Assembly (NCBI GenBank): GCA_902777355.1
Contig: CACYTU010000024.1
Coordinates: 1 to 40,590, forward strand
Reading direction: 5' to 3'
DNA from: an uncultured Lachnospiraceae bacterium
Lineage (GTDB): Bacteria; Bacillota; Clostridia; Lachnospirales; Lachnospiraceae
Length of the DNA stretch: 40,590 nt
The notes below the pieces were generated by a model. It saw nothing but the letters and a program-made list of their open reading frames with translations, was not told the origin of the DNA and ran no database searches. The position numbers and the translations under genes are program-made. Shown in pieces: positions 8,425 to 40,311 of the stretch (position 1 is the first letter of the stretch; the number at the start of each line of letters is the position of its first letter).

Positions 8425-8460
8425 TTCCTGACTATTTTCCTGACTGTCTTCCTGATTGCC
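8425..8460. repeat. 12-bp tandem repeat, three units
   Basis: Three consecutive 12-bp units all begin TTCCTGA (8425-8436, 8437-8448, 8449-8460). A second loose series based on TATGCAGCG follows to about 8505. The array sits in the 5' region of the hypothetical gene on the minus strand. Confidence 0.85.
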
Positions 8461-8642
8461 AGATTGTTTTATGCAGCGGTTATGCAGCGTCTTTATGCAG
8501 TGCCTTAATTTAGCACATGTACTATCACGCCTATTATTGTATAATATTACGGATGCGCTTGAAATTGTTAAAGCGATCGTGATTGCGAATATTTGCAATC
8601 ATTAGTGTAAACATTAATGTATCCATTCATGCGGGGATTACC

Positions 8643-8760
8643 GCAGACCTTTTGCATGCTTTTTTGCATGCCTTTGTGCAGGCATTCCTGCAGGTTTTTT
8701 TGCAGGGACTGTCGCAGGATTTTCTGCAGGGATTACCGCAGGCGATCTCGCAGGGATGGA
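8643..8760. repeat. 12-bp tandem array, about ten degenerate units
   Basis: Units starting GCAGG or GCATG recur every 12 bp from about 8654 to 8760; the first unit at 8643 is 11 bp. In one plus frame they read as a tetrapeptide repeat (FLHA, FLQV, FLQG and similar), in another as Cys/Arg-rich sequence. No ribosome site supports translation. The array lies directly upstream of the HD-domain gene and may form part of its leader. Confidence 0.9.
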
Positions 8761-8787
8761 AGGAGTATTGGAGGAAAAATATTTATC

Positions 8788-9720
8788 ATGACCAGAGAAG
8801 AAGCATTTGAACTTTTGAAAAAATATAACAGTGATCCCTTTCATATCCGCCACGCCATTACAGTGGAGGCGGTGATGAAGTGGTTCGCAAAGGATCAGGG
8901 ATACGGTGATGAGGCAGATTACTGGGGGCTGGTCGGTCTCCTTCACGATATCGATTTTGAGCTGTATCCGGACCAGCACTGCATCAAGGCTCCGGAGCTT
9001 CTGCGGGCAGGCGGTGTGCCGGAGGACATCATTCACGGAGTGGTGAGCCACGGCTACGGGATTACGGTGGATGTGAAGCCTGAGCATCAGATGGAAAAGA
9101 TCCTCTTTGCCAGCGATGAGCTGACAGGCCTGATCTGGGCGGCGGCTCTCATGCGCCCCTCCAAGAGTACAAAGGACATGGAACTGAAGTCCCTGAAGAA
9201 GAAATACAAGAGTAAGGGCTTTGCGGCTGGCTGCTCCCGTGAGGTCATCGCCAGGGGTGCGGAGATGCTGGGCTGGGACCTGAACGAGCTGCTGCAGAAG
9301 ACCCTGACCGCTATGCAGGACTGCGAGGATGAGATCCTGGCGCAGCGATTGTATAGTGAACGACAAATATCCATTGACGTTCACTATAATGGATGCACAA
9401 GGACGCGTAAGGTATGCTGCGGTTTATGCCGCACGCGGCCGGCGCGGAGAAAACGACAAAATAAAGACTATTTTTCGTTTTCCACAAATAATTGTAAACA
9501 GGCAAGTGTGTTGCGTACAGCAAAGGCTATTGATAATGCGAAGCAGTGTTATCGCCGCGCGCAGCGTTACAGGAACACGTCCTTCGAGGGGGCGTGTTCC
9601 TGTAACATTTTTTGTTACTGTTCACGCCCTATCGAGGGCGTGAACAGTAACTTGCGAAAATCCCATTCCAAATCGCTTCGCGATGGGATTTTCGCCGTAA
9701 AACTCGGGTTTTTGCGCTGA
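8788..9720 (+). CDS. HD-domain phosphohydrolase-like protein with aberrant C-terminus
   Basis: The start is ATG 8788, preceded by GGAGGA at 8770-8775 (12-nt spacer, slightly long). Residues 1 to about 188 form a compact HD domain: H22, the H53-D54 pair, H88 and D110 fit the metal-binding pattern of small HD phosphohydrolases that act on nucleotides or other phosphoesters; the substrate is unknown. Related small HD proteins are about 190 aa. Here the frame continues a further 120 or so residues through the inverted repeats starting at 9352, giving an Arg/Cys-rich tail that looks like translated hairpins. The likely explanation is insertion or recombination of a repeat element at the 3' end, removing the native stop. 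The HD core seems intact, so activity may be retained. A GTG start at 8617 would add translated repeat array and is rejected. Confidence 0.8.
   Translation: MTREEAFELLKKYNSDPFHIRHAITVEAVMKWFAKDQGYGDEADYWGLVGLLHDIDFELYPDQHCIKAPELLRAGGVPEDIIHGVVSHGYGITVDVKPEHQMEKILFASDELTGLIWAAALMRPSKSTKDMELKSLKKKYKSKGFAAGCSREVIARGAEMLGWDLNELLQKTLTAMQDCEDEILAQRLYSERQISIDVHYNGCTRTRKVCCGLCRTRPARRKRQNKDYFSFSTNNCKQASVLRTAKAIDNAKQCYRRAQRYRNTSFEGACSCNIFCYCSRPIEGVNSNLRKSHSKSLRDGIFAVKLGFLR
9352..9388. repeat. Inverted repeat at the HD gene 3' end
   Basis: TATAGTGAACG (9352-9362) is the exact reverse complement of CGTTCACTATA (9378-9388), with a 15-nt loop. It coincides with the point where the HD-domain protein loses similarity to its family, so it may mark the edge of an inserted element. 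Confidence 0.8.
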
Positions 9721-9765
9721 AAACCGCGCAAAAACGCCTCGAATTCAGTGGAGTGTGAACAGTAA
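9567..9765. repeat. Multi-hairpin intergenic element, copy 1
   Basis: Consecutive strong hairpins: a 14-bp stem GTTACAGGAACACG/CGTGTTCCTGTAAC; a 17-bp stem with 4-nt loop at about 9614-9651 starting GTTACTGTTCACG; a 12-bp stem CGAAAATCCCAT/ATGGGATTTTCG; and GTTTTTGCGC/GCGCAAAAAC. The element ends near a second GAACAGTAAC. The order and several sequence blocks recur in diverged form at 31035-31250; the best match is 9693-9725 against 31181-31213 (about 28 of 33 identical by eye). It resembles REP/MITE-type palindromic elements rather than a gene. Confidence 0.85.
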
Positions 9766-9825
9766 CCATTTTTTTCTCTGATATCCGTATTCTTATCAGA
9801 GAGTGAGGTAAGAGAGGAAGAAAAG

Positions 9826-9834
9826 TGCTATAAT
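9826..9834 (+). promoter_or_regulatory. Extended -10 promoter for the 2427-aa gene
   Basis: TGCTATAAT is a perfect extended -10 element (TGnTATAAT). The -35 region is weak, which is usual with an extended -10. Transcription would begin near 9841, leaving a leader of about 410 nt before ATG 10252. Confidence 0.6.
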
Positions 9835-9840
9835 AACTGT

Positions 9841-10251: not shown

Positions 10252-13200
10252 ATGAAACGAAGACAATTGGCTGCTGTTGCGCTGTCAGCGATCCTGTCTT
10301 TTTCTGCTTGTTTCCCTGCAACAGGGATTGGCGTGTACGCCGCGGAAAATGACACAAGTCCGGGTTTTTCCGCTGAAGAGACTGTAGAAGCCGGCGGCAG
10401 CGATGAAATGACAGAAGCTGCAGGGCAGGCGGGCGAATCTGCCCGGGACAACGCGGAAGAGACTGTTGACGGTCTGCCTGAAGATTATGCAGAGCAGGCC
10501 GGCGAGTCAGCCCAGGACAATTCGGAGGAAGCCTTTGATACATTGTCAGGGGAGATCCCGTCCGAAACAGATCCTGTCGGGGAAGCCGATGGGGGAGAGA
10601 CGGCTGCAGAAGCGGAAACAGAATCCGCCGATAAAGCCGCAGCAGACGCGGAAGCGGTTTCCGAAGGTGAAGCCGGGGACGCAGATCCTGCAGACAGCGG
10701 GACCGCCGGTCAGGAGGAGGCCTCCCCTGATGAAGGGACAGCTGTTCAGGAGGAAGTCCCTGCCGGTGAGGAGGAGGAAACTCTTTTCGATGGCGGTGAC
10801 ATCGCTCAGGAAGATGCACAGGATCAGGCTGAAGACCAGGCTCAGGACGATGCACAGGACCAGGCTCAGGACGGTTTCGAGACGGTCACAGAGGAAGGCG
10901 GCCTGCAGGAAGACGAAGCAGTCAGTGAAAATGCTGCAGGCGATGCAGTGGAGGTCGTTTCCCAGGACTTTGAGGGCGCAATAGAGATTCCTGTCGGAGG
11001 TGCTGTTGATGTCAATATCACCGGCGATGCCCCTGCGTTTTTCTATTTAAGCCCTGAGTATAACGGAAAATATGTGATCTACTCCACCAGCTCCGGATGT
11101 AACCCCGCCATGATCCTGTATGATGACGACTATAATGAAATCGGTGCCTCCGATGATGATAGCGGCATGGATTTCGAATATACGACATTTTTGGAGGGAG
11201 ATGCCGGATATTACATTCAGGCTTACTGCTTTGATGAACAGGCCGAATATCAGGTGCATTTTGAAAAACTGCCGTATTATGCCAGGGCAGCGGAGGGGAT
11301 CACCGATTTTCATCTTGAACGGGGCGGCGGCCAGACTCTCAAGGTAGAAACCGGAGCGCCCGAAGGGGAAGAGGTCACCTTCCGCTGGCACAAATCAGAC
11401 GGAAGCGGGCTTTCATATGACACCGGTATCCCCAATATCTGCTCAGTACAGAATGTGCAGTCCTATACACAGATCTGCTGTGATGTCGGTTACCCGGACG
11501 GGACCGGGGAAACCGTTTTCTTTAATCTTTATGTAAACGGTGTTATCTCTGCCTGGCCGGAAGGAGGCGCGCCTGATTCGAGATCCAGCATGTTATTTAT
11601 TGAACGCGGCAGTTCGCCGTCTCTTTCTGTCTCCTTCACCAGTGAAGGCCTGGATCCTTCCATCGTCTGGTATGATGAAGACAATCAGGTGCTCCAGGAT
11701 AATGGGTGGAATGATTATACTCTGTTTGATATTCAGGAATCCCGTACGATCTTCTGCCGCGTGTCCGATGTCAATGATCCGGACAACTATGCGGTTGTCA
11801 CATTTTATATCAATATCAATCCTGCCAATGATCTCTTTGTCTATCCGGAAGGAAATGAAAGAAAAGAGAATGAAAAATACATAGACATTACAGGCAAGGA
11901 ATCGCTTACACTCCGCACGATGGTCGAAGCCGGAGAAAACGTCGAAGGAATCACCTATAAATGGGAAAACAGAAAATATCTGGAAGAAGACTGGACTGAG
12001 ATCCCCGGGATCGAGGGAGATACATACGAAGTCAGCATGCCCATGAAAGGCGATTACATGTGCACCGTCACTGACTCGAACGGCCGGTCAGAGTCTGCCT
12101 TTTTCCATCTGTATCTGGGGAATGACGAGGAATTCTCTCTTTCCGGAACTGACCTGTATGGAGAGGTGGTATACGCCACAGAGATTTATCTTGATGCCGA
12201 TGATTCAGACGGTCCGGTCTCGCTCTGGGTCACAGCATATACGGGAGTCGGCGACCGTCTCACTTATCAGTGGTACAAGGATGCCGGCAGCGGTGAGGAA
12301 CTCATTGAGGGGGCGGACAATCCCGCCTATTCCGTCGATAATCCCGTGAACGGTACAGCCTACACCTGCGTTGTGGACAACGGCTACGGAGATAAACCGC
12401 TTTCACTGACTTATTTCTTCAGGCACAGCAACAGCTTCTGCGTCTATGCGGACGCTGAGAGATTGGAATGGTCAGTGGAACTGGACCCCCGCGCAGCGGA
12501 GAGCTTTACATTGTCTCCTTACGTGACGGCAGATAACATGGACGGGCTCACTTACGAGTGGAAAATGTCCCACAGCGATGACGAAGAACTTGCCCCGACC
12601 GGTGATACATCGGCATCCCTGACTGTCAGCTCTCCTGCAAACGGAGAAACCTACGCGTGTACAGTTACGGATTCCTTCGGAAACAGTGGAACAGCCAGGT
12701 ACAGGTTTATTGTCAACAACCATCTCCGGGTGTATGCAGCTGAGGATCCCTCGAAACAGAATTACTTTTATATTGATGTTACGGGAAAAGAGACTCTGAC
12801 CCTCAACGCTGTCGTGGAGGCGGACGAAGGAACTCCGGTGACCTACTTTTGGTCAGTGTCAGACGACTTCGGCGATCAGGTGCTGGTAGACGCGGACGGG
12901 GCATCCGGCAAGCTCACCGGAGGGGGAGAAATCTCCCTGCAGGTGGGTACACCTGAGGCAGGCAGAATATATGAATGCGTCGTTAAGGACGATTATAACG
13001 CCATGATGATCCTCTCGATTCAGCTTGTTTCGGAAACACCTGCCCTGAATATTTATCCGGAAGGTGCTTCAGAGGGCGAGGATACCGCTGTCATCAACGT
13101 TGGCTGGGAGGACGCATATACGGTACTCACTGTCAATAGCGTCGGGGAACCCGACGGGTTTTCTTATACCTGGAAAAATGCGTCGGGCGAGATAGTAAGC

Positions 13201-16200
13201 TCCCTGAATAACGAGCCATCTTATTCTCTTTATGAGCCCGTTGACGGCGAAAAATATTCCTGCACGGTGACCGACCGTTACGGGCAGGAGGCCACCGTCT
13301 GGTTCGAACTGCATGTGGAGAGGGATCCGAATGGTCTCACAGATGAGCAGATGGCATCCGCCCGGGCGATCAGGGCGGGAGAAACGGCATCTGTCGAGGG
13401 AGAAGCCGGAGATGGAAGCACTCTGTTTGCCTTTACCCCGGAGGCGGACGGACATTATCTCTTCTACTCTTCCCACGAAGAGACGGAACAAAGCGATCCT
13501 TATGGAGAACTCTATGACCCGAGAGGATCCTTGATCACTTCAGATCATGACAGCAGAGGGAATGCGGATTTCCTGATCAGCGTAGATCTGACCGCAGGAA
13601 AAACCTATTACCTGAAAGCACAGTACTACAGTGAAGAACCCGCCTCCTACACTGTACACGTGGAGGCAACGGACTTTTTCGTTCTTCGGAACGGGACTGC
13701 GGAAAGAACAGCCTATATTGGAGAAGAAACAAGGTTCGATTTCATCTGGTGGTCAGCAACCGATATCGACTGCCAGTGGTATGAGGGCGATGCGGACGGT
13801 ACGGAAGGCTCGTTTGTGGAAATCAGCGGCGCGACCGGAACGGAGTATAGTCCTGTTATAGAGAAGGACTGCAGTTTTATGTGCCGGGTCTCGGATACAG
13901 CCGGGCATACCGAAGACATCATCTTCTATATTACGGCACAAATCGACCGGAATCCTGTAGACAGCGATTTTGAGAACGCGGAGGAAATTGGCTCCGGTGA
14001 ATCAAGAGACATCACGCTCACGGAAGACCACTTCGCGGAAGTGTACAAATACACAGCGGAGAAGGGCGGAAGCCTGAATATTTACGTGAATTCCGAAGAC
14101 GAGGATTTTTACGGCTTTGTTCAGATCTATACCAAAGAGACGGATGCGGAAGATACCTACTACAACTACGTCATAAGCAGCGATCGTTTCGAATATGAGC
14201 TCAATGCCGGAGAAACGATCTATCTGAGGGTCGTGGAAAACAACTACAGGCCGGGCAGCTGCACCCTTCATGTGGACCATATCCCCTTGAAGGCAGAGGC
14301 TGTTACTGACTCGATTGTCAATGTCCGCAAGGGTGAGGAAGCGACCTTCGGTGTGAGCGCCCGGTCTTCTGAATCCGCGGTGCATTACCAGTGGTATGAA
14401 GAGACCTCCCTGAATTCGGATGAATACACACTGGTTGAAGGAGCAGACAAAGATTCCTACACATTTACTGCTGACAGGGATTGCAACATAAAGTGCATTG
14501 TTTCGGATGACAGCGGAAATACCGTCCCTGTTTATTTCACGGTCTTCATTTCTTACGGACCTTCGGAAAAATCTTTTGAGGAAGCGGAGAACATCGAAGC
14601 CGGAGACACTGTACAGGTTGGTGTGGATCCGGAGCATTACGCGAAGACTTTCAAATTCGTACCGGAAAAGGAAGGCGCCTATACCGTCCGCGCTGTCCTC
14701 GGTGAAAACACTTATGATGCTCCCCGGGTCATGGTGTACGGCAATGATCACACTGGGATTCCGAATGATCAAAAATATGATGCCTATCCTGAATACCTCA
14801 GCTCATTCGTCGCCGGGGCGGGAGAGACCTATTATATTTATATCCTTTCAGAAAATCCAGTCATTACGGGCTCTTATACGCTCAGTCTGACGGAGAGCAC
14901 GGATCTGTGTGCCTATAACCGTGATGACTCCAATTATATTACAATATGGCCGGAAGAAGAGGCATCCTTTGAGGTGACCGCCTGGTCGGCTTCCCCTCTC
15001 CACTATCAGTGGTTCTATCGGGTGGAAGACGAAAATGAAGAGAACGAGCCTTCTGAGATTCCGGGCGCCACAGAGGCTTCCTATACAACGGACAGCCCTA
15101 AGAGCGGCTGCTATATCTGTAAAGTATGGGACGATGAGGGCCGTTCGAAAGAGGTGGAATTCCAGCTTCATGTGGATAACAGCCTGTATTTCGAAGAGTA
15201 CGAAAAGGAGATCAGCTGCAACCCTGGAGGGACTGCGCTTCTGGAGGCAGATGCAACAGCCCGGGATGAGGATGGACTTCAGTTCAGATGGCAGAAATAT
15301 GACAATGCCACTGAAGAATGGGTCGATCTGAGCGGAGTTTCAGGCAGAACCTATACGACACCGGAGGTCTCGGAGAGGACTGAATACCGGGTCATCGTTA
15401 CAGACAGATACAATAACGAAAAATATAAATCGTTCACAGTGGGTGTCGAAAACAATTTCTCTGCCGCTTACGTTCAGCATGAGAATGATGACAAAGAGGA
15501 GGTCATTGACGATGTCCTGACAGTTCAGTTCTCTGCGGATGATCCGTCTTATGAGCCAAAGCTCGAGGTGAAGGCGGAAGCAGCTGACCTCAACGGCGTC
15601 ACTTACAGATGGGGCTGCAAATCAGGAGATCAGTCTACGATCACCCTTGAGGAAACCGGGCCGACATGCATTCCGCGGTATGACGGTTACTATTTCTGCA
15701 CAGTGACTGACAGATACGGAAATGAAAGAGAAGTCACCTTCAGGGTGATCATCGACAACGACCTGCACTTTACCAGGATGGAAGACACTGATCTGGAAGT
15801 CCGCGGAAGCCGGGCTGTGACGCTCACTGCATCGGCGGAAGCCCTGAAGCAGGATTCCATCCGCTACCTCTGGTTTAGAGACCTTAGTTATGACACGGAA
15901 TTCCTCGGGGAGACCAGTGAAAATCATTTTGAGGTCACTCCTGAGTCGGAATATGAGAGGTATTTCTGCTGCCTGACAGATATTTACAGGCACTACGATG
16001 ATTCCAGCCAGGTGTACTTCAACATCACAATAATACCGGGGATCGATCTCTCGGATGCAGAGATTACAGTCGCCGCGGACGGCCTCACCTATGACGGAAA
16101 AGCCAAGACCCCTGCTGTCACTGTCAAATATAGCGGCAATACGCTTACGGCAGGCACAGACTATGAAGTTGCATATAGCAACAACACAAACGCAGGCACC

Positions 16201-17535
16201 GATACTGCCAAACTCACTGTCACAGGCCTTGGAGATTATGAGGGAACAGTTGAAAAGACCTTCTCCATTGCGAAGGCTTCCCAGTCCCTCCAGGCAGAGG
16301 ATCTCTCTGTCCCCTTCTCCGGAACGGCAGCAATCGGCGTCACGGGCGCACAGGGCAAAGTGACATTCACTTCCGACGCACCCGAAGTAGCCGCTGTGGA
16401 TGCGGACGGAAATGTGACCGGCAATAAGATCGGAACCGCCGGAATCAAGGTTTCCGCTGCCGGAAATAACAATTACCTTCCCGCAGAGAAAGAGATCACA
16501 GTCACGGTCACTGCCGCAGAACTTAAGGCTGAAGACGTGACAGTCGCCGCGAATGGCCTCACCTACAACGGAAAGGCCCAGAAGCCTGCCGTCACTGTCA
16601 AATATGGCAGCCAGACCCTGGCAGAAAACACCGATTACAAAGTCTCTTACAAGAACAACACAAATGCCGGCACCAATACTGCGGAGGTCACCATCGCCGG
16701 CATGGGCAATTTCAAGGGTTCGGTCACAAAGAAATTCTCCATCGCCAAAGCGGCTCAGAAACTCACTGCGTCAGCAGTGAAGACCCCCGTGGGCAAGACA
16801 GCCACGATCTCTGTTACAGGCGCCAAAGGCACTAAGACCTTTAAATCCGCCAACAGTACGATCGCGGCAGTGAACAGCAAAACGGGTGTGGTCACCGGCA
16901 AAAAGGTGGGCACTGTCAAGATCACTGTGACATCCGCGGCTACGTCAAACTATAAAGCTGCAAGCAAGACCGTCACTGCCACAGTCCTTCCTGCGGCAAC
17001 CACTAAGATTACGGCTGAAAACCTGGCAACAGGCATCAAGGTCACTTGGAACAAAGTCACAGGAGCCAACGGCTACATCCTCTACCGCAACAACGCCAAG
17101 ATTGCCACGCTGAGCGGAAACGCAAAAGTAACTTACACGGACAGCAAGGCAAATACAAACGGAACCAAGTACACCTACAAGGTCGTCGCAAAGGCTTCCA
17201 CAGGCACAAGTACTCTCTCCAAGTCCCTGGCAACCTACCGCCTGGCGAGACCTGCGGTGAGCTCACTCACTAACAGCGCCGCCGGGAAGATGACAGTCAA
17301 GTGGGCAAAGAATGCCAAAGCGACCGGATATCAGATTCAGTACACGACCGACAGCGGATTCAAATCCGGTGTCAAGACCGTCAAGATCACAAAGGCCGCG
17401 ACGGTCTCCACAGTGATCGCAAAGCTGACGAAGACAAAGACCTACCATGTGAGAATGCGCACTTACAAGACTGTAGGCAGTACCAGCTATTACTCGACCT
17501 GGAGCGCTTCAAAGAGACTGAAGATCACAAAGTAA
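10252..17535 (+). CDS. Giant secreted Ig-like/PPC-like multidomain protein (2427 aa)
   Basis: AGGAGG at 10240-10245 is 6 nt before the ATG. A classical signal peptide (MKRRQLAAVALSAIL..., likely cleaved after VYA at about 30) leads into an acidic linker (about 31-242) that includes a tetrapeptide AQDQ-type array. PPC-like beta-sandwich modules lie at about 242-340, 1030-1137, 1234-1344 and 1434-1547. They are interleaved with about a dozen Ig-like domains, each showing a YxW/YQWY Trp and a YxCxVxDxxG Cys. The C-terminus has two YDGKAKxPAVTVKY (MBG-like) units (about 1936-2005 and 2092-2165), each followed by a BIG2-like unit, then two fibronectin III-like domains (about 2250 to end). There is no sortase motif or C-terminal membrane helix, so the protein is released or held non-covalently. 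Probable adhesin or matrix-like protein; the ligand cannot be inferred. Confidence 0.9.
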   Translation: MKRRQLAAVALSAILSFSACFPATGIGVYAAENDTSPGFSAEETVEAGGSDEMTEAAGQAGESARDNAEETVDGLPEDYAEQAGESAQDNSEEAFDTLSGEIPSETDPVGEADGGETAAEAETESADKAAADAEAVSEGEAGDADPADSGTAGQEEASPDEGTAVQEEVPAGEEEETLFDGGDIAQEDAQDQAEDQAQDDAQDQAQDGFETVTEEGGLQEDEAVSENAAGDAVEVVSQDFEGAIEIPVGGAVDVNITGDAPAFFYLSPEYNGKYVIYSTSSGCNPAMILYDDDYNEIGASDDDSGMDFEYTTFLEGDAGYYIQAYCFDEQAEYQVHFEKLPYYARAAEGITDFHLERGGGQTLKVETGAPEGEEVTFRWHKSDGSGLSYDTGIPNICSVQNVQSYTQICCDVGYPDGTGETVFFNLYVNGVISAWPEGGAPDSRSSMLFIERGSSPSLSVSFTSEGLDPSIVWYDEDNQVLQDNGWNDYTLFDIQESRTIFCRVSDVNDPDNYAVVTFYININPANDLFVYPEGNERKENEKYIDITGKESLTLRTMVEAGENVEGITYKWENRKYLEEDWTEIPGIEGDTYEVSMPMKGDYMCTVTDSNGRSESAFFHLYLGNDEEFSLSGTDLYGEVVYATEIYLDADDSDGPVSLWVTAYTGVGDRLTYQWYKDAGSGEELIEGADNPAYSVDNPVNGTAYTCVVDNGYGDKPLSLTYFFRHSNSFCVYADAERLEWSVELDPRAAESFTLSPYVTADNMDGLTYEWKMSHSDDEELAPTGDTSASLTVSSPANGETYACTVTDSFGNSGTARYRFIVNNHLRVYAAEDPSKQNYFYIDVTGKETLTLNAVVEADEGTPVTYFWSVSDDFGDQVLVDADGASGKLTGGGEISLQVGTPEAGRIYECVVKDDYNAMMILSIQLVSETPALNIYPEGASEGEDTAVINVGWEDAYTVLTVNSVGEPDGFSYTWKNASGEIVSSLNNEPSYSLYEPVDGEKYSCTVTDRYGQEATVWFELHVERDPNGLTDEQMASARAIRAGETASVEGEAGDGSTLFAFTPEADGHYLFYSSHEETEQSDPYGELYDPRGSLITSDHDSRGNADFLISVDLTAGKTYYLKAQYYSEEPASYTVHVEATDFFVLRNGTAERTAYIGEETRFDFIWWSATDIDCQWYEGDADGTEGSFVEISGATGTEYSPVIEKDCSFMCRVSDTAGHTEDIIFYITAQIDRNPVDSDFENAEEIGSGESRDITLTEDHFAEVYKYTAEKGGSLNIYVNSEDEDFYGFVQIYTKETDAEDTYYNYVISSDRFEYELNAGETIYLRVVENNYRPGSCTLHVDHIPLKAEAVTDSIVNVRKGEEATFGVSARSSESAVHYQWYEETSLNSDEYTLVEGADKDSYTFTADRDCNIKCIVSDDSGNTVPVYFTVFISYGPSEKSFEEAENIEAGDTVQVGVDPEHYAKTFKFVPEKEGAYTVRAVLGENTYDAPRVMVYGNDHTGIPNDQKYDAYPEYLSSFVAGAGETYYIYILSENPVITGSYTLSLTESTDLCAYNRDDSNYITIWPEEEASFEVTAWSASPLHYQWFYRVEDENEENEPSEIPGATEASYTTDSPKSGCYICKVWDDEGRSKEVEFQLHVDNSLYFEEYEKEISCNPGGTALLEADATARDEDGLQFRWQKYDNATEEWVDLSGVSGRTYTTPEVSERTEYRVIVTDRYNNEKYKSFTVGVENNFSAAYVQHENDDKEEVIDDVLTVQFSADDPSYEPKLEVKAEAADLNGVTYRWGCKSGDQSTITLEETGPTCIPRYDGYYFCTVTDRYGNEREVTFRVIIDNDLHFTRMEDTDLEVRGSRAVTLTASAEALKQDSIRYLWFRDLSYDTEFLGETSENHFEVTPESEYERYFCCLTDIYRHYDDSSQVYFNITIIPGIDLSDAEITVAADGLTYDGKAKTPAVTVKYSGNTLTAGTDYEVAYSNNTNAGTDTAKLTVTGLGDYEGTVEKTFSIAKASQSLQAEDLSVPFSGTAAIGVTGAQGKVTFTSDAPEVAAVDADGNVTGNKIGTAGIKVSAAGNNNYLPAEKEITVTVTAAELKAEDVTVAANGLTYNGKAQKPAVTVKYGSQTLAENTDYKVSYKNNTNAGTNTAEVTIAGMGNFKGSVTKKFSIAKAAQKLTASAVKTPVGKTATISVTGAKGTKTFKSANSTIAAVNSKTGVVTGKKVGTVKITVTSAATSNYKAASKTVTATVLPAATTKITAENLATGIKVTWNKVTGANGYILYRNNAKIATLSGNAKVTYTDSKANTNGTKYTYKVVAKASTGTSTLSKSLATYRLARPAVSSLTNSAAGKMTVKWAKNAKATGYQIQYTTDSGFKSGVKTVKITKAATVSTVIAKLTKTKTYHVRMRTYKTVGSTSYYSTWSASKRLKITK
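10816..10875 (+). repeat. In-frame 12-bp array, five units
   Basis: Five 12-bp units (GCACAGGATCAG type) encode AQDQ, AEDQ, AQDD, AQDQ, AQDG within the acidic linker. The period matches the non-coding arrays elsewhere in the window. Confidence 0.9.
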
Positions 17536-17539: not shown

Positions 17540-17745
17540 GAGAAAGCGCGGAAGAAGCGTGGAACAAGCCTTAAAAAGCTTGTAAAAAGCGTGAAAGAAG
17601 CGCGAAAGCGTGCCTGAAAAAACTTGTAAGAAACAAGGAAGAAATCACGGAAGCGTGTCTTAAAAAGCTTGTTAGAAACGCGGAAGCAAGCGCGAAAGCG
17701 TGCCTGAAAACGCTTTAAGAAACGCGGAAGCAAGCGCAAAAGAAA
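17540..17745. repeat. Degenerate tandem repeat array after 2427-aa gene
   Basis: The array begins a few bases after the stop codon. Short A-rich units with GCGCGGAAG, AAGCGTGCCTG and AAAAAGCTTGT cores recur at roughly 11-13 bp, with a longer-range duplication (for example GCGCGAAAGCGTGCCTGAAA, seen twice). Read on the minus strand it gives a Phe/Arg-rich pseudo-peptide; that reading frame is not a credible gene. Confidence 0.85.
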
Positions 17746-29378: not shown

Positions 29379-29388
29379 TATGCCTTAT

Positions 29389-29460: not shown

Positions 29461-29492
29461 AATAATTTACAGTTGGCTTTCCGCAAGGTTTT

Positions 29493-30797
29493 TCAGGTCA
29501 TCTTCTCAATCTCCTCTTCGGTATATCCCAGCCCCTTCAGGATTTCTTCAGTGTGGTACCCTTCCGGATATCCGGCGTGGTCATAGCGGGGCGGGCAGGC
29601 GGAGAGGTGCATGGGACAGCCCATCTGGGTGATGCGAACGGGAGAACCCTGGCAGTCTGCTGTCACGGAAGCGGATTCACTGTCTGTACCGCTGTCTGAG
29701 ACTTTGTAGGTACTGTTATCTGAGTCGCTGTCTGAGACTTTGTAGGTACTGTTATCTGAATCGCTGCCCATGCCGCTGTCTGCGGAAAGGGGAACTTCCA
29801 CTTTGGGCCACATACCGCGCTGCACCAGATGCTGGTCCGTGGACACCTCTTCAAGGTCCATGACGGGCTCCACACAGGCGTCGAGCCCGCTGAAGACGTC
29901 CGTCCATTCGTCCCGTGTCTTTGTCCTGAAAACTGAGCGGAAGGTCTCTTTGACCATAGCAGAATCGGATTTGAGGATTTTCCCGTCCTTCCATTCAGGG
30001 TGCCCCAGTCCGGTGCAGAGAGCGGCGAAAAACTTGGGCTCCAGGGATCCCACGCTCATGTATTTGCCGTCGGAAGTCTCGTAGAAGTCATAGATTCCGC
30101 CGCCGTTCAGAAGGCCGCTCTCCCTCATGGGCATGGGACCGCCTGCGAAATAGCTGGCCCCGTCCATGGAATTGAATGGTATGACGCTGTCCTGCATGGA
30201 GACGTCTATAAACTGCCCCTCCCCTGTGCGCTCCCGGTAAATGATCGCGGCCAGGATGCTGGAGACGGCATTCATGGAGCCTCCCGCCACGTCGGCAATC
30301 TGGAAGTTGTAGAGACCCGGGCCGCCTGCCTTTCTGCCGCCTGCCCATGCGATGCCGGAGCGGGACAAGTAGTTGATATCGTGGCCGGCCTTCATGGCGA
30401 AGGGACCGTCCTGTCCGTAACCGGTGATTGCGCAGTAGATCAGGCGCGGATTGACTTTTTTCAACTCCTCGTAGCCGACGCCCAGCTTGTCCATGACACC
30501 GGGACGGAACTGCTCCACTACGATGTCATACTCCATGACCAGCTTTTTGACGGCCTCGACGGCAGCCGGCTTTTTCAGATTCAGAAAGATTGTCTTCTTA
30601 TTGCGGCCAAGCCAGGCCTGCGCCCCGGTCACCTTCGCTCCCTCAATCACCGGAGGCCAGTTGACCACCAGGTCATACTTGTCGCGGCCGCTGACTTTGA
30701 GCACTTCCGCGCCCAGATCCGCCAGGGTCATCGTGGCATAGGGACCCGGGAGAAGCGTCGTGAAATCCAGAATTTTGTACCCGTCTAAAGCACCCAT
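29493..30797 (-). CDS. CaiB/BaiF-family CoA protein, alpha-methylacyl-CoA racemase-like (434 aa)
   Basis: AGGAG precedes ATG 30797 at good spacing. The sequence follows the alpha-methylacyl-CoA racemase branch of family III CoA transferases: FRPGVMDKLG, GYGQDGPF, AGHDINYLS with H139, ADVAGGSM with D169, and E240 in YDFYETSDG. These correspond, from memory of the mycobacterial racemase, to the catalytic His/Asp and an active-site Glu. It probably epimerises or transfers CoA on a branched acyl-CoA; the substrate is unknown. Between PKVEVPLSADS (about 345) and ITQMGCP (about 390) lies an insertion of about 45 residues rich in Ser/Asp, built from a 36-bp duplication; such proteins normally have only a short loop here. 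The gene is monocistronic, convergent with the giant gene and divergent from hemC. Confidence 0.87.
   Translation of the reverse strand: MGALDGYKILDFTTLLPGPYATMTLADLGAEVLKVSGRDKYDLVVNWPPVIEGAKVTGAQAWLGRNKKTIFLNLKKPAAVEAVKKLVMEYDIVVEQFRPGVMDKLGVGYEELKKVNPRLIYCAITGYGQDGPFAMKAGHDINYLSRSGIAWAGGRKAGGPGLYNFQIADVAGGSMNAVSSILAAIIYRERTGEGQFIDVSMQDSVIPFNSMDGASYFAGGPMPMRESGLLNGGGIYDFYETSDGKYMSVGSLEPKFFAALCTGLGHPEWKDGKILKSDSAMVKETFRSVFRTKTRDEWTDVFSGLDACVEPVMDLEEVSTDQHLVQRGMWPKVEVPLSADSGMGSDSDNSTYKVSDSDSDNSTYKVSDSGTDSESASVTADCQGSPVRITQMGCPMHLSACPPRYDHAGYPEGYHTEEILKGLGYTEEEIEKMT
29691..29762 (-). repeat. 36-bp tandem duplication inside the CaiB-family gene
   Basis: Two 36-bp units (29691-29726 and 29727-29762) differ at one base and encode a repeated DSDNSTYKVSDS-type segment. 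Length is three times 12 bp, so the frame is kept. Confidence 0.95.
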
Positions 30798-31528: not shown

Positions 31529-32665
31529 GTGGAAAAGGACGAAAAACAATTGATCATCGGGAGCCGGGACAGCCTGCTGGCAGTCAGACAGTCCACGATT
31601 GTTCTGGACTATCTGAGGAGGGCACATTCGGAGATGCGCTGCGAACTCCTGACCATGAAGACGACCGGGGACAGGATTCTCGAGAAGCGTCTGGATCAGA
31701 TCGGCGGCAAGGGACTCTTTGTAAAGGAACTGGATATCGCGCTCCGGGGCGGGAGGACGGATCTGTCGGTCCACAGCCTCAAGGACATGCCCGCCGAAAT
31801 TCCGGAGGACCTGCCGGTCATAGGCTTTTCCGGACGGGAGGATCCCCGGGACGTGCTGGTACTGCCGGAGGGCATTTCTGATATCGCTGAAATGGACTTC
31901 ACAAAGCCGATCGGAACATCTTCACGCAGGCGGGCCCTGCAGGCGCGGGAACTCTTTCCCCGGGCCCGCTTTGAGAGCGTGCGGGGAAATGTCCAGACAA
32001 GGCTTCGCAAGCTCGACGAAGGGCAGTACTGCGCGCTGATCCTGGCCGCAGCCGGCCTCCGTCGTCTGGGGCTGGACAAGCGGATCAGCCGGGTTTTCTC
32101 CGTAGAGGAAATCATTCCGTCCGCAGGCCAGGGTATCCTGGCCCTTCAGGGCAGACAGGGTGTGGACTATTCCTGTCTGGACGGCTTCCTCAACGAGCGG
32201 TCGGCCATCGCGGCAGCGGCTGAGAGAGCTTTTGTCGGGGCTCTCGGGGGCGGCTGCACCTCTCCGATTGCAGCTCACGCAGCTTTTGTGGATGTAGACG
32301 ATTCAGGTATGGATGCCTGCTCAGGGAATGAGAATGGATTTGGTGCGAATGCCTGCTCAGGGAATGAAAATGGATCCTGTTCGGATGCCTGTGTTCATTG
32401 CGGATCCGGTTCAGGCCGGGACGCTGAAAACCGCCCTGACAGAGGCACTTACAGCGATCCTGACAGAGGCCTTTACAGCAATCCTGACAGAGGCCTTGCC
32501 AGCAGCCCTGACAAGGAGATGATGACGCTGCGGGGCTTCTATTATGATGAACTGACCTGCAGATCCTATCGCAAAAAAATAACTGTGCGGGCCGGTTCCT
32601 CCGAAGAGGGAAGGGAAGCGGGAAAAGAGCTCGCGGCTGCCATCCTGGCGGAAGCCAGAGGATGA
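31529..32665 (+). CDS. hemC: Porphobilinogen deaminase with repeat insertion
   Basis: Hydroxymethylbilane synthase: joins four porphobilinogens into the linear tetrapyrrole. The GTG start at 31529 has AGGAGG at 31518-31523. Diagnostic features are IGSRDSLLAVRQS, the HSLKDMP loop with catalytic D86, GTSSRRRALQ, the arginine-rich RFESVRGNVQTR, and GGGCTSP with C243, the dipyrromethane cofactor anchor. At 378 aa it is about 70 longer than usual. The excess lies at residues about 256-330, right after the cofactor loop in domain 3, and consists of a 36-bp repeat (DACSGNENG units) and a 24-bp repeat (PDRGLYSN units). The C-terminal strand and helix resume at MTLRGFYYDE, so the fold is probably intact. 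First gene of a hemC / cobA-hemD / hemB series, and probably co-transcribed. Confidence 0.95.
   Translation: MEKDEKQLIIGSRDSLLAVRQSTIVLDYLRRAHSEMRCELLTMKTTGDRILEKRLDQIGGKGLFVKELDIALRGGRTDLSVHSLKDMPAEIPEDLPVIGFSGREDPRDVLVLPEGISDIAEMDFTKPIGTSSRRRALQARELFPRARFESVRGNVQTRLRKLDEGQYCALILAAAGLRRLGLDKRISRVFSVEEIIPSAGQGILALQGRQGVDYSCLDGFLNERSAIAAAAERAFVGALGGGCTSPIAAHAAFVDVDDSGMDACSGNENGFGANACSGNENGSCSDACVHCGSGSGRDAENRPDRGTYSDPDRGLYSNPDRGLASSPDKEMMTLRGFYYDELTCRSYRKKITVRAGSSEEGREAGKELAAAILAEARG
32313..32384 (+). repeat. 36-bp in-frame repeat inside hemC
   Basis: ATGCCTG recurs at 32313, 32349 and 32385, exactly 36 bp apart. The first two units continue identically through CTCAGGGAATGA. The encoded loop is Cys/Asn/Gly-rich and lies after the cofactor Cys. 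Confidence 0.93.
32438..32509 (+). repeat. 24-bp in-frame repeat inside hemC, three units
   Basis: Units of 24 bp start GACAGAGGC at 32438, 32462 and 32486 and encode PDRGTYSD, PDRGLYSN, PDRGLASS. Each unit is itself two related 12-mers: read in another frame they give LTEA/LTAI tetrapeptides, so the ancestral period appears to be 12 bp. Confidence 0.93.
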
Positions 32666-32743: not shown

Positions 32744-34597
32744 ATGAGCGGAAAAGTATGGCTGGTCGGGGCTGGCCCCGGAGACAGCGGCCTTTTTACA
32801 CTGAAGGGACTGGAAGTCCTGCAGAGAGCGGATGTTGTGGTTTATGATGCCCTGATCGGCGTGGAACTCCTGGCCCTGATCCCTGAAGACGCGGTCAAAA
32901 TAGATGTCGGCAAAAGGGCTTCAAACCACCGCATGCCCCAGGAGAGAATCAATCAGATCCTTCTGGAACAGGCGCAGGCGGGGCGGAAAGTGGTCCGTCT
33001 CAAGGGGGGCGACCCTTTCCTGTTCGGCCGCGGAGGGGAGGAACTCGAACTCCTGGTGGAGAACCATATTCCTTACGAAATAGTTCCGGGCGTCACCAGT
33101 GCTTTCGCTGTTCCCGCCTATAACGGGATTCCCGTTACCCACCGCGACTACACGTCGTCCGTGCACGTGATCACCGGGCACCGCAGGGCCGACCGCGGGC
33201 AGGACGGGAATCGCGGGCAGGATGGGAGTCACGGACAGGACGGAAACCGTGGTCTGGACATTGACTTCGAGGCGCTTGCCCGCACGAACGGCACCCTGAT
33301 CTTTTTGATGGGCCTGTCAAATCTGCCGGTCATTATGAAAGGACTTATGGACGCAGGACTGGACCCGGGGACGCCTGCCGCTGTTCTGGAAAAGGGAACA
33401 ACGGCTGAGCAGAGGCGGGTTATCGCGACTGTGGAAACCCTGGAGGCGGAATCAAAGAAGGCCGGGATCCAGGCACCTGCCATCATTGTCGTCGGTCAGG
33501 TCTGCAAATTAGCGGAATCCTTTGCCTGGGCGGAAAAACGCCCTCTCGGGGGCAAAAGAATCCTCCTCACCCGGCCAAAGGAGCTGATTTCGGAGATGGC
33601 GGCGCACCTGCGCAGACTCGGCGCTGAGGTCGTGGAGCTGCCCGCCATCGACACTGTTCCGATCGACCCCAATCCGGCACTTGATGATTGTCTGGGCCGC
33701 TTTTTCGGAACCGCCTGCCGGGCACAGACGGCAGAATCAGAGGCAGTGACAGAGGCAGTGACAGGCGGCTGCGTGCAGAATGCAGAGCTTGCTCAAGACT
33801 CCCGCCATTCCCCGGACTGGCTTGTCTTTACATCCCCTACAGGGGTGCGGATTTTTATGGACAGATTCTTGCAGGACCACGATATCCGGGACTTGTGGGG
33901 CACCAGGATCGCCTCCATAGGAGCCGGAAGCAGCCGCAAACTGAAGCAATATGGAATCAAGCCGGATTTTGTGCCTTCTGTTTTTGACGGAGAGACCCTC
34001 GGCAGGGAGCTCGCTGAGAAGATTATCCGGGAGAAAACTGCCGGGGAAAATAATAAACCGGAGAAAAACGATAGGGAGAATAATGCCCCGGAGATGAATG
34101 AACGGGGGGAAAAGATCCGGGAGAAAAATGCCGGGGAAAAGATTATTCCGGTCAGCATTGCTGCGATTTCCCAAGGGAAGAACTGCGGGCTGCAGGATGA
34201 ATCCGTTCCTGTGCGGATCCTGATTCCCAGAGCCGCGATCGGAAACCCGGAGCTGATTGAAGAATTGAAGAAGATCGGCAGTGTTGAGATACTTGACATT
34301 CCGACTTATAACACTGAGTACAGATCCTCCGGGATCGTGGATGTCAAAGGGCTGCTCAGTGAGGGAAGTATTGACTATGCCGTCTTCACCAGTGCCTCAA
34401 CGGTGCGCGGTTTCAGGGCGCAGACGGAAGGCCTGGATTTGTCCGGACTGAAAGCAGTCTGCATAGGACGCCAGACCCGTGCTGCTGCGGATGCGCTGGG
34501 CATGGAAACCAGAATGGCGGAGAAGGCCACACTCGACGCGCTTGTCGATGCCGTCGTGGCATGCGCCGGGGAAGATGAAAAGACCGGCGGAAGATGA
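32744..34597 (+). CDS. cobA-hemD: Uroporphyrinogen-III methyltransferase / uroporphyrinogen-III synthase fusion
   Basis: ATG 32744 is 5 nt after GGAGG (32734-32738). Residues 1 to about 265 are the SAM-dependent methyltransferase (CobA/SUMT): GAGPGD at 9-14, GGDPFLFGRGGEE at about 87-100, PVTHRDY and the VITGHR segment. Residues about 268-617 are uroporphyrinogen-III synthase (HemD), which closes the HemC product. Together they carry the pathway to precorrin-2 for siroheme or cobalamin. Fusions of this order are well known in Clostridia. Three low-complexity insertions are present: an 18-bp repeat in CobA (about 149-172, RGQDGN units), an acidic loop with AGAGGCAGTGAC-type repeats in HemD (about 324-353), and a 15-bp pentapeptide array in HemD (about 425-469). 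All keep frame. The stop codon lies inside a further repeat array. Confidence 0.95.
   Translation: MSGKVWLVGAGPGDSGLFTLKGLEVLQRADVVVYDALIGVELLALIPEDAVKIDVGKRASNHRMPQERINQILLEQAQAGRKVVRLKGGDPFLFGRGGEELELLVENHIPYEIVPGVTSAFAVPAYNGIPVTHRDYTSSVHVITGHRRADRGQDGNRGQDGSHGQDGNRGLDIDFEALARTNGTLIFLMGLSNLPVIMKGLMDAGLDPGTPAAVLEKGTTAEQRRVIATVETLEAESKKAGIQAPAIIVVGQVCKLAESFAWAEKRPLGGKRILLTRPKELISEMAAHLRRLGAEVVELPAIDTVPIDPNPALDDCLGRFFGTACRAQTAESEAVTEAVTGGCVQNAELAQDSRHSPDWLVFTSPTGVRIFMDRFLQDHDIRDLWGTRIASIGAGSSRKLKQYGIKPDFVPSVFDGETLGRELAEKIIREKTAGENNKPEKNDRENNAPEMNERGEKIREKNAGEKIIPVSIAAISQGKNCGLQDESVPVRILIPRAAIGNPELIEELKKIGSVEILDIPTYNTEYRSSGIVDVKGLLSEGSIDYAVFTSASTVRGFRAQTEGLDLSGLKAVCIGRQTRAAADALGMETRMAEKATLDALVDAVVACAGEDEKTGGR
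33194..33259 (+). repeat. 18-bp in-frame repeat inside the CobA domain
   Basis: Units at 33194-33211, 33212-33229, 33230-33247 and a partial one to 33259 encode RGQDGN, RGQDGS, HGQDGN, RGLD. They lie directly after the conserved VITGHR segment. Confidence 0.93.
34016..34150 (+). repeat. 15-bp in-frame array inside the HemD domain, nine units
   Basis: Nine contiguous 15-bp units (GAGAAAACTGCCGGG type) encode charged pentapeptides such as EKTAG, ENNKP, EKNDR, EKNAG. The array splits the HemD domain between the DGETLGRELA region and the VRILIPRA strand. Confidence 0.93.
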
Positions 34598-34717
34598 AAA
34601 GACCGGCAGGAGATGAAAAAACGGCAGTAGAAAAAAAGCTGGCAGGAGATGAAAAACCGGCAGTAGAAAAAAACCGGCGGTTGATAAAAAAGGCCGGCAG
34701 GAGATGGAAGGCCGGTA
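34574..34717. repeat. Degenerate repeat array spanning hemD stop and hemB leader
   Basis: Units of about 18-20 bp or double length start GATGAAAA and end ACCGGCAGGA. The first encodes the last residues of HemD (DEKTGGR); the second supplies its stop (GATGA). The rest is non-coding up to about 75 bp before hemB. Confidence 0.88.
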
Positions 34718-35829: not shown

Positions 35830-35894
35830 AAAAAAAGACCCTCCGGCTTCAGGTGATTTTCAATCACCAATCCTTCAGCCGGAAGGTCTTTTTT
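35830..35894 (+). terminator. Strong terminator after hemB
   Basis: AAAAGACC plus TCCGGCT (to about 35848) pairs with AGCCGGA plus GGTCTTTTTT, enclosing a second perfect hairpin GGTGATTttcAATCACC. The T-run ends at 35894, about 115 bp after the hemB stop. Confidence 0.9.
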
Positions 35895-36048
35895 CAGTGA
35901 ATCGCTGCATTAAGATATTTCAATGAATCATTGCTTTAAGACATTTCAATAAATCATTGTTCTGAATGATATTTCAATGAATCATTGTTTTAAAACATTT
36001 CAGTGAATCATTGTTCTATTGTGCGGAATGATATTTCAGTGAAAACTG
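35892..36048. repeat. 26-bp repeat array with internal palindromes
   Basis: Units begin TTTCA(A/G)TGAATC at 35892 and then every 26, 26, 28, 26 and about 36 bp. Three units carry CAATGAATCATTG or a one-base variant, a 13-bp palindrome. The region is AT-rich and lies between the hemB terminator and the 3' end of the convergent secreted-protein gene. No ORF. Confidence 0.88.
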
Positions 36049-36096
36049 TCGGGACGGCGCGTAAAAACACGGCTGGCCAGGCATTCCACAGTCACA

Positions 36097-36873: not shown

Positions 36874-37257
36874 CTTTTTCCCTCCTTGATTTCAGTGATG
36901 GCATTGTGGCAGGATATGGGCGAATCCGCTTTGGTACATTCAGGAACCGCACCTGAGTCTTGTGCGATCAAGAATACACCGAATAGATGCAATATATATT
37001 ACAACGGTTTTAACCAAAAGGAAATGAATATTTTCGGGCATTCCTGTTGCAGGTGCTTGATTTATCGGTCTAAATTTTTCTGTCGGGTGTATAATGAATT
37101 GATTGTCAATTGGTTTTAAATGGAAAAACGAGAGGGAAAGAGCAGTGCTGCCTAAAAATCAATTGTTTTTTAAATGAAAAAAAGAATAGAAGAGATTAGA
37201 AGAGATTAGAAGAGAATAGAAGAGTCGTGTCGTTTGAAAAACAGGAGGAGAAGAGTC
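36874..37257. other. Divergent intergenic region
   Basis: It separates the secreted-protein gene (minus) from the YbaK-type gene (plus). A TATAAT at 37090-37095 lacks a good -35. TCAATTG followed by TTTTAAATG occurs twice (37106-37122 and 37159-37176), a short direct repeat. A 10-bp array and a duplicated start region occupy the 3' end. No gene longer than the mini-ORF at 37227 is credible. Confidence 0.6.
37184..37225. repeat. 10-bp tandem repeat upstream of ybaK
   Basis: AGAGATTAGA-type units repeat at 10-bp intervals (AGAGATTAGA twice, AGAGAATAGA once, plus flanking partials), purine-rich, ending at the duplicated start region of the next gene. Confidence 0.88.
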
Positions 37258-37719: not shown

Positions 37720-37866
37720 AGCAAGTAAACCGGATATGAACCCTGCATAGTACGCGCATAGTGCCTGGTGCCGGCGGGATCCGAAGACAAACAGGGAAAA
37801 AGAGAAAGTCAAAGATCAGCCCCGGAGAGAAGGGCAAAAAGAAGGTCAAAGAAAGTAAAGCAAAAA

Positions 37867-37998
37867 CAAAAGACCGGAAAGAAGGTCAGACAGAAGGATA
37901 AACAAAACGCCGGGCAGAAGGTTAAACAGAAAGACAAACAAAAGACCGGAAAGAAGGTCAGGCAGAAGGTCAAAGAGAAGGGCAAAAAGAGAAGGTAA
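37867..37998. repeat. 12-bp tandem array, eleven units, before the MATE gene
   Basis: Contiguous 12-bp units (CAAAAGACCGGA, AAGAAGGTCAGA, CAGAAGGATAAA, ...) with a higher-order repeat of 72 bp (units at 37867 and 37939 match). One plus frame reads through all of it as a Lys/Gln/Arg-rich peptide (KVRQ, KDKQ, KTGK units) from a GTG at 37768, but no ribosome site supports a gene. The last unit supplies the GAGAAGG ribosome site of the MATE gene. Confidence 0.92.
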
Positions 37999-37999
37999 A

Positions 38000-39352: not shown

Positions 39353-39360
39353 GCCGTTTT

Positions 39361-39447
39361 GACAGAAAAAGACAGAAAAAAGATAGGAAACAGACAGAAA
39401 AAAGACAGGAAAAAGACAGGAAAAAGACAGAAAAAAGACAGAAAAAA
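39361..39447. repeat. 11-bp tandem array, eight units
   Basis: GACAGAAAAAA-type units recur every 11 bp (the first is 10 bp) from directly after the MATE stop codon to the terminator at 39444. On the minus strand they are repeated TTTTTTCTGTC, the natural tail of that terminator, suggesting growth by duplication of the terminator T-run. Confidence 0.93.
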
Positions 39448-39506
39448 GACAGGCTGCTGAACAGCGCCGCCCACGGGGAGTGAACACAGTTCAGCCAGCC
39501 TGTCTT
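39444..39506 (-). terminator. Terminator of chrA, possibly bidirectional
   Basis: AAGACAGGCT-GCTGAAC (39446-39462) pairs with GTTCAGCcAGCCTGTCTT (39489-39506), an approximately 17-bp stem with one bulge. On the minus strand it is followed by TTTTTT; on the plus strand the T-run is poor. It lies about 120 bp after the chrA stop. Confidence 0.65.
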
Positions 39507-39622
39507 ATTATCGAAACGGCGCATAAAACCAGGGCCGACGAAGTCGTCCGCGGGTACATCACATATCCGTCAATTCATGATTCCGGCGCGGAAACTGTTC
39601 ATGCCTGTCTGCACGGAGATTA

Positions 39623-40198
39623 TCAGGCACCGGCAAAGCGGAAGACGATTCCGATTACAGCCGAAAAAACTATAAAGGCGATGGGATGGACCTTAGGGAA
39701 TATTTTCTGCCCCGCGAAAATGACAATCCCCAATAGGATCGCTTTCCACAAAAAGAGGTCTGTAATATTGCGGGAAGCAAGAAAAGCATCGATGTTGACG
39801 AGCGCCACTTTGGCTACGTTCAGGCCGGCCGCGGTGATCATGGCGATTGAGGCTGGGCGCAGTCCATACAGGGCGTTCTGTACGTGATGGCTCTCCTGGA
39901 ATTTTTTCAGGAAACTGGAGATGATCAGAATGATGATCAGAGAGGGTGTCGCCAGGGCCAGGGTCGCTATGACGCCGCCCGGATATCCGGCGGTTTTGAA
40001 GCCGGCAAAGGTAGACATGTTGATTCCGATTGCCCCGGGTGTGGACTCGGAGATCGCGATCATGTCCGCGATGTCCGCGTGAGAGAACCAGTGGGTTTTA
40101 TTTGACATCTCATAGAGGAAGGGGAGTGTCGCAAGGCCGCCTCCGATGGAAAAGAGACCTGTTTTAAAAAACTCCCAGAACAGCTGCAGATAGATCAT
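39623..40198 (-). CDS. chrA: Short-chain chromate transporter (ChrA domain), single half
   Basis: The 191-aa membrane protein corresponds to one ChrA half. FSIGGGLATLPFLYE and the loop ISESTPGAIGINMSTFAG are the family signatures; about five or six hydrophobic helices follow. GGAG precedes ATG 40198. Short-chain ChrA proteins usually occur as adjacent gene pairs forming a heterodimer; the flanks here (39353-39622 and 40199-40590) hold only repeats, so the partner is missing or elsewhere. Physiological substrates in anaerobes are uncertain; chromate or another oxyanion is family-based inference. Confidence 0.9.
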   Translation of the reverse strand: MIYLQLFWEFFKTGLFSIGGGLATLPFLYEMSNKTHWFSHADIADMIAISESTPGAIGINMSTFAGFKTAGYPGGVIATLALATPSLIIILIISSFLKKFQESHHVQNALYGLRPASIAMITAAGLNVAKVALVNIDAFLASRNITDLFLWKAILLGIVIFAGQKIFPKVHPIAFIVFSAVIGIVFRFAGA

Positions 40199-40250
40199 TT
40201 CTTTTCTCCATATATCTTAATTGTGTAACATTCTGATAAAATCTTAAAAA

Positions 40251-40311
40251 GCGCTTCAGAAAAATTCTGAAAAAGCGTTTCTGAAAAATTCTGAAAAGCG
40301 CTTCAGAAAAA
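40251..40311. repeat. 24-bp repeat with palindromic cores, upstream of chrA
   Basis: Units at 40251-40274 (24 bp), 40275-40297 (23 bp) and a partial 40298-40311, each starting GCG(C/T)TT. Each full unit contains a TTCTGAA or TTCAGAA pair forming a small inverted repeat. It lies 50-110 bp before the chrA start. Confidence 0.88.

Follow-up and report, generated by a model that had tools for sequence, protein, structure and literature searches.

The 40,590-bp stretch of DNA analysed here (the window) is one entire contig (CACYTU010000024.1) of G000, the draft genome GCA_902777355.1 of an uncultured Lachnospiraceae bacterium. It raises the question of why short, degenerate tandem arrays lie in its intergenic gaps and also, in frame, within conserved enzymes such as the porphobilinogen deaminase HemC. 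We found that these arrays are real, linked to a lineage and unusual in strength. They probably reflect a clade-wide bias towards tandem duplication, in which copies arise at a raised rate and are then filtered by selection.

An array was defined as a Tandem Repeats Finder (TRF) row with a score of at least 50, with overlapping rows merged. The window holds 26 arrays, 16 genic and 10 in gaps, whereas 100 order-2 Markov shuffles averaged 0.19 and never exceeded 2. In G000 (3,868,868 bases in 150 contigs; completeness 84%, contamination 5%), a 400-kb sample made of 20 stretches of 20 kb, taken from 20 contigs other than the window, contained 218 arrays, or 5.45 per 10 kb and 5.43% of bases, and each stretch held between 3 and 16. 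The genome set comprised 31 genomes, namely 19 members of the genus (G000 to G018) and 12 from other families. From these, G008 showed 125 arrays in 400 kb (3.12 per 10 kb), G014, of the same genus, 26 in 293 kb (0.89), and G019, of another family and with a guanine plus cytosine content of 35%, 31 in 400 kb (0.78); Escherichia coli K-12 had one in 50 kb (0.20). A single shuffle of each of the four sample sets (G000, G008, G014 and G019) gave 1 to 4 arrays. The array density, on which the preliminary description of this DNA had staked its claim of an unusual pattern, greatly exceeds the values in the sampled relatives.

In a MutS tree covering 29 of the 31 genomes (G010 and G020 had no usable MutS), G000, G008, G009, G013 and G017 formed one clade with a support of 1.0, and G010 was assigned to it by its HemC and by 86.7% nucleotide identity to G008. 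The pooled density per 10 kb of readable sequence was 4.07 in these six clade genomes and 0.84 in ten other genus members (Mann-Whitney p = 0.001). This test required at least 10 kb of readable sequence, which left out G001, G006 (nothing readable) and G011 (5.4 kb). Outside the clade, the density within the genus is mostly low, with exceptions. The array-bearing records L001, L002, L003, L005 and L006 come from separate projects.

The age of the copies indicates how this density arose. Exact duplications with a unit of at least 10 bp numbered 74 in the G000 sample (185 per Mb) and 37 in G008 (92 per Mb), compared with 4 in the 293 kb of G014 (14 per Mb) and 5 in G019 (12 per Mb), so that fresh duplications are 13 times commoner in G000 than in G014. 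Arrays with a 95-100% match occurred at 115 per Mb in G000, 60 in G008, 0 in G014 and 8 in G019, and those with a 75-84% match at 138 per Mb in G000 versus 41 in G014. Considering that the excess of the youngest arrays equals or surpasses that of the old ones, and that retention alone would mostly enrich the old, we infer a raised birth rate of tandem duplications and not only a slow loss. Among 46 isolated fresh duplications (21 from G000 and 25 from G008), the ends have 0-2 bp in common in 34, and random breakpoints predict approximately 93% with 0-2 bp and 2.6% with at least 4 bp. Judged from these junctions, most births appear to need little homology.

The arrays of the window, together with the hemC gene, are as follows.

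2294-2351, forward strand: 12-bp array in the first giant surface protein (TRF)
2958-3004, forward strand: 15-bp array in the first giant (TRF)
7459-7553, forward strand: 24-bp array close to the C-terminal end of the first giant (TRF)
8423-8455, no strand: 12-bp intergenic array (TRF)
8650-8757, no strand: 12/24-bp array in the gap upstream of a predicted start at 8788 (TRF, gene finder)
10804-10872, forward strand: 12-bp array in the second giant (TRF)
17541-17742, no strand: 45-bp intergenic array, 4.6 copies (TRF)
18993-19449, forward strand: cluster of 12-, 24-, 15- and 36-bp arrays in the third giant (TRF)
20428-20564, forward strand: 42-bp array in the third giant, earlier read as 84 bp (TRF, lag identity)
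24773-24823, forward strand: 21-bp array in the third giant (TRF)
29310-29340, no strand: 16-bp intergenic duplication (TRF)
29683-29766, reverse strand: 36-bp in-frame array in a CaiB-family CoA transferase (TRF, pfam scan)
31529-32665, forward strand: hemC (porphobilinogen deaminase), with an array-coded insert at residues 256-325 that is predicted to be disordered
32311-32391, forward strand: 36-bp array in hemC (TRF)
32435-32513, forward strand: 24-bp array in hemC (TRF)
33194-33243, forward strand: 18-bp array in the CobA part of a CobA-HemD fusion (TRF)
33738-33764, forward strand: exact 12-bp array in the HemD part (TRF)
34025-34142, forward strand: 45/15-bp array in the HemD part, ahead of the second HEM4 stretch (residue 492 on)
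34573-34706, forward strand: 18/36/55-bp array running from the last hemD codons past the stop into the gap before hemB (TRF)
35892-36017, no strand: 26-bp intergenic array (TRF)
37183-37224, no strand: 10-bp intergenic array (TRF)
37864-37990, no strand: 12/36-bp intergenic array (TRF)
39361-39453, no strand: 11/33-bp intergenic array (TRF)
40231-40311, no strand: 24-bp intergenic array (TRF)

Several of these had been read directly from the letters before. TRF recovered the 36- and 24-bp arrays in hemC and the 36-bp array in the CaiB-family gene, as well as 12-bp arrays at 8423-8455, 8650-8706 and 10804-10872 and the 12/36-bp array at 37864-37990. However, it lists no array of any period at 29389 even at a score of 30; the lag-12 identity over 29380-29480 is 0.52, with a chance level of approximately 0.26. 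The 84-bp repeat of the third giant is present, but its TRF unit is 42 bp, and over 20400-20600 the identity is 0.69 at lag 84 and 0.65 at lag 42. The arrays in gaps are likewise real, but the statement that almost every intergenic region holds one was too strong, since 9 of the 15 gaps of at least 50 bp do.

Genes and gaps were called with a gene finder written for this analysis, which gave a coding fraction of approximately 77% for G000. Its sampled arrays divide into 138 intergenic (15.0 per 10 kb, compared with 1.25 in G014), 69 coding (2.24 per 10 kb) and 11 mixed, and 106 of 240 gaps of at least 50 bp carry an array (13.7% of intergenic bases), compared with 3 of 173 gaps in G014. Intergenic periods were multiples of three at the chance level (44 of 138, p = 0.79), whereas 65 of the 69 coding periods were multiples of three. 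Therefore, repeats of any length arise, and genes keep the units that preserve the frame. In G000, arrays cover 4.0% of the 50 bp that precede starts and 16.1% of the 50 bp that follow stops. These differences between gaps and genes match a mutation pressure that is filtered by selection. Gap orientation was discarded as a pattern: the array share in G000 is highest in convergent gaps (30.4%), but this peak does not recur in G008.

The preliminary description had expected an excess of 12-bp multiples. Intergenic periods show none, with 12 of 138 being multiples of 12 (1/12, as by chance; p = 0.88), and the 65 frame-keeping coding periods include 23, where a quarter would be expected (p = 0.06). 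In addition, each of the four genomes examined for it, array-poor ones among them, has a mild lag-12 peak. We have thus rejected 12-bp periodicity as a signature. No 12-bp system is needed: multiples of 12 happen to be frequent in the window (14 of 26 periods), but make up 37 of 218 in the G000 sample.

It had also been suggested that the reading frame of coding arrays is the one that yields polar peptides, implying selection. Array-coded peptides are indeed hydrophilic, with a mean grand average of hydropathy of -1.31 compared with -0.49 for whole proteins. However, the two alternative frames, with stops removed, are also polar (-1.11 and -1.48), and the coding frame ranks first in hydrophilicity in 20 of 69 arrays, approximately the chance level, so that a choice of the polar frame was rejected. 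Selection on coding arrays itself is borne out in another way, by the kept reading frame and by amino-acid constraint, as the ratio of nonsynonymous to synonymous substitution rates (dN/dS) between neighbouring in-frame copies was 0.41 in 62 indel-free arrays from G000 and the window. Based on the polarity of the other frames and on this ratio, polar places tolerate the growth of arrays, which are then constrained, and the frame is not chosen.

The arrays are also local in origin. A blastn comparison of the 244 arrays from G000 and the window found no resemblance to any other array for 242 of them, and the same holds for 109 of 125 in G008, in agreement with the earlier observation that arrays in unrelated genes lack a common sequence and do not represent one mobile repeat. 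At 34573-34706, the unit begins inside the last hemD codons and continues beyond the stop, and the hemD-hemB gaps of nine relatives, read by eye, hold different sequence. A process that generates local tandem duplications, as had been proposed, is accordingly backed by density, arbitrary periods, fresh copies and unshared sequence.

In G008, 16 of the 125 arrays resemble another. Several of its gap arrays (e.g. L055, L058 and L061) share an inverted repeat with GAACCGTCCC that resembles a repetitive extragenic palindrome (REP). The short form of this inverted repeat occurred 25 times in 400 kb of G008 and 13 times in 440 kb of G000 and the window, and was absent from the samples of G014 and G019.

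Within proteins, HemC shows one place where arrays are accommodated. In a comparison of 16 rows, with L019 and L021 disregarded, the insert lies at one turn (between AHAAF and MTLRGFYYD in the window); the window and L001-L006 have a long, species-specific insert, and L007-L010 and L016-L018 have one of a few residues. An AlphaFold2 model based on a 13-sequence alignment has a predicted local distance difference test score of approximately 30 at residues 256-325 and above 90 in the flanking strands, and matches porphobilinogen deaminase 1pda with a template modelling score of 0.88 by target. The array-coded insert is therefore predicted to be a disordered loop on an intact fold, and in a pfam scan the match to the C-terminal domain breaks at the insert.

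Several core proteins also have greater lengths in clade members. MutS carries an insert at one site, of 81 residues in G000 and 19-34 residues in G008, G017, G013 and G006, and inserts also occur in other genus members, if fewer. Open frames of an SbcC-like protein, so called because matches to SbcC stay below the curated cut-off of the family throughout the 31 genomes, span 1211-1361 residues in six clade genomes versus 1073-1155 in 11 others (p = 1.6e-4), and those of MutL span 761-915 residues in five clade genomes versus 638-761 in 11 others (p = 0.003). These lengths run from stop to stop, and fragments were dropped (MutL of G002, G010 and G011; SbcC of G002 and G011). Among 20 array-bearing G000 proteins scanned with NCBIfam, 14 matched a family at 1e-10, with the arrays lying outside or between the matched stretches. 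They precede the RlmD, RluD and UbiB domains, follow PdxR and the matched part of PcrA, lie between parts of CbiG, CbiK and an EF-G-like GTPase, and stand ahead of the main RecD2 stretch. In one case (L030:12180-14741 of G000), an array-coded linker joins, within one frame, an ABC-type ATPase to a CobB-like cobyrinic acid a,c-diamide synthase. At L029:5847-9056 of G000, a long EF-G-like GTPase paralogue carries arrays both between its matched stretches and after them.

Missing mismatch repair and an unusual polymerase had been considered as possible causes. We searched for MutS, MutL, PolA, PolC, RecJ, XseA, SSB, SbcC, Ku, the PolX thumb domain and Y-family polymerases. MutS, MutL, PolA, PolC, RecJ, XseA, SSB and the SbcC-like protein are each present in G000, so that their loss was rejected as a cause, and mutS and mutL pass the family cut-offs when neighbouring pieces are counted. 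All three exonuclease motifs of PolC are intact in G000, G008, G009, G017, G014, G004 and G016. PcrA and RecD2 are also present in G000, each carrying an array. Ku was found in one of the 31 genomes and in none of the 19 genus members, and the PolX thumb domain is absent from the genus genomes; the gain of either was rejected as a cause, and with Ku an origin of the duplications by non-homologous end joining. Y-family polymerase domains occur at 1-4 places per genus genome, mostly three, and at 0-1 in each of the 12 genomes from other families, but they do not cleanly split array-rich from array-poor genus members and were rejected as well.

Based on these results, we propose that the lineage would make short local tandem duplications, of approximately 10-150 bp and any length, throughout its genome at a raised rate. 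Existing repeats would then grow or shrink further and decay through point mutation. In genes, units that are not multiples of three would be lost and inserts would survive at loops, linkers and ends, and in gaps arrays would be avoided just upstream of start codons and tolerated elsewhere. As for the mechanism, our best guess is slippage or backward template switching at replication forks: births may be backward slips or template switches at stalled forks with 0-2 bp of homology, and later growth may be helped by the repeats themselves. A more specific version, which we offer tentatively and consider doubtful, is that an altered replication or repair factor acts as a duplication mutator that needs no homology and leaves mismatch repair and proofreading intact, with lengthened gaps and with disordered, fast-changing extensions of core enzymes, including MutS, MutL and SbcC, as its outcome.

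Several observations weigh against a clade-wide bias in births. The array-poor G014 has a 63-residue MutS insert at the same site as that of G000. G005, outside the clade, reaches 2.38 arrays per 10 kb (in 25 kb), which exceeds G009 (1.66) and G017 (1.78), and G001, left out of the density test, has 2 arrays in 3.7 readable kb. We defined the clade with the densities already known, and relatedness does not enter the test, which takes the genomes as independent. At the junctions, 10 of 46 share at least 4 bp compared with approximately 1.2 expected from random breakpoints, and a minority is accordingly either homology-driven or derived from trimmed three-copy arrays. An alignment of the hem region from six species (85-92% identity), in which diverged gaps align unreliably, gives the process no support: of 21 species-specific insertions of at least 6 bp, two were N runs, and one of the remaining 19 scored as a clean tandem copy of the adjacent sequence (null 1.6%). 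Furthermore, the replication and repair families searched yielded no causal gene. The closest pair, L004 and L006, is 92.4% identical over 6332 bp and differs by six indels of at least 5 bp, all extra in L006. Two of the six are clean tandem copies, one of 9 bp (exact) and one of 12 bp (0.83), and three others seem internally repetitive by eye.

The main competitor to a raised birth rate is retention only, in which an ordinary rate of births is combined with weak selection or a weak deletion bias that keeps the duplications. On the one hand, G000 has a larger genome than its 18 same-genus relatives (3.87 Mb vs 2.2-3.7 Mb) and longer gaps (median 250 bp vs 149 bp in G014), and the filtering of genic arrays fits tolerance wherever they are harmless. 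On the other hand, the youngest arrays are raised at least as strongly as the old, exact duplications are in excess too, and retention by itself would chiefly enrich old arrays unless the relatives purge new ones very fast. Accordingly, we consider retention by itself unlikely, although it is the rival that we take most seriously. Repeats kept for a function, such as contingency or phase-variation loci, would agree with the amino-acid constraint on genic copies and with the abundance of arrays in the giant surface proteins. This explanation is improbable, as housekeeping enzymes carry arrays and so do 106 of 240 gaps, without sequence shared between places, and, considering that coding units keep the frame, a change in copy number would not switch genes off.

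The two remaining explanations are more remote still. Seeding by a mobile or REP-like element is suggested by the G008 arrays that resemble one another, including those with the inverted repeat, but sequence is shared by only 2 of the 244 arrays from G000 and the window, and unit lengths are arbitrary; a mobile-element origin is thus largely refuted for G000, and we regard it as very improbable overall. We give equally little credence to an assembly or binning artefact of metagenome-assembled genomes. The incompleteness and contamination of G000 and the fragmentation of some relatives would allow for it, as would L004 and L005, two distinct hemC-hemD-hemB loci within one metagenome-assembled record set (JAUNEM01), which indicate that this bin is mixed. 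However, the arrays are degenerate and keep the frame in genes, they recur in records of separate projects, and G014, likewise a draft, is array-poor.

By analogy, the nearest known cases to a lineage-wide duplication bias appear to be Ehrlichia ruminantium and Portiera. E. ruminantium has many tandem repeats that expand and contract in long gaps, with a low coding ratio, in a 1.3-Mb obligate intracellular genome that is approximately 64% coding, the repeats being described in non-coding DNA (PMC10710844). G000 resembles it in having gaps rich in tandem repeats, but its 3.87-Mb draft genome is not reduced and has a higher coding fraction, and its arrays also lie, in frame, in conserved enzymes. 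In Candidatus Portiera of Bemisia and Singhiella whiteflies, lineages that lost dnaQ, the proofreading subunit, show repeats and enlarged gaps while sister lineages are stable (PMC7821994). The clade-specific onset of repeats and enlarged gaps is alike. In our case, however, G000 and six relatives keep the proofreading motifs of PolC, and G000 has both mutS and mutL.

Mutators deficient in mismatch repair share the instability of repeats, but G000 retains mutS and mutL and its units are mostly longer than 10 bp, which exceeds what mismatch repair is known to handle. The low-complexity inserts of Plasmodium are disordered and fast-changing and lengthen housekeeping enzymes, as the inserts described here may do, but here the host is a bacterium and gap arrays occur alongside. 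In the open-access literature we found no described case in Lachnospiraceae, which is weak evidence of absence, and no paper that links the family to tandem repeats, low complexity and insertions.

Most bacteria keep their gaps and enzymes lean, and the birth rate of minisatellites is usually studied in reduced endosymbionts or eukaryotes. An array-rich lineage beside array-poor members of the same genus offers a natural comparison for what sets this rate. The HemC loop, which passes from a few residues to approximately 70 at one turn while the fold is predicted to be kept, suggests how disordered inserts may start. In practical terms, annotation by profile or length will break or split array-bearing proteins.

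Finally, the giants at 678-7766 and 18396-29222 have N-terminal membrane segments of one type (TTYALVLPAITME) together with sortase-like C-termini (LPNSG and LPYTG, followed by a hydrophobic stretch and arginines). The giant at 10252-17535 has no such sortase-like C-terminal end.

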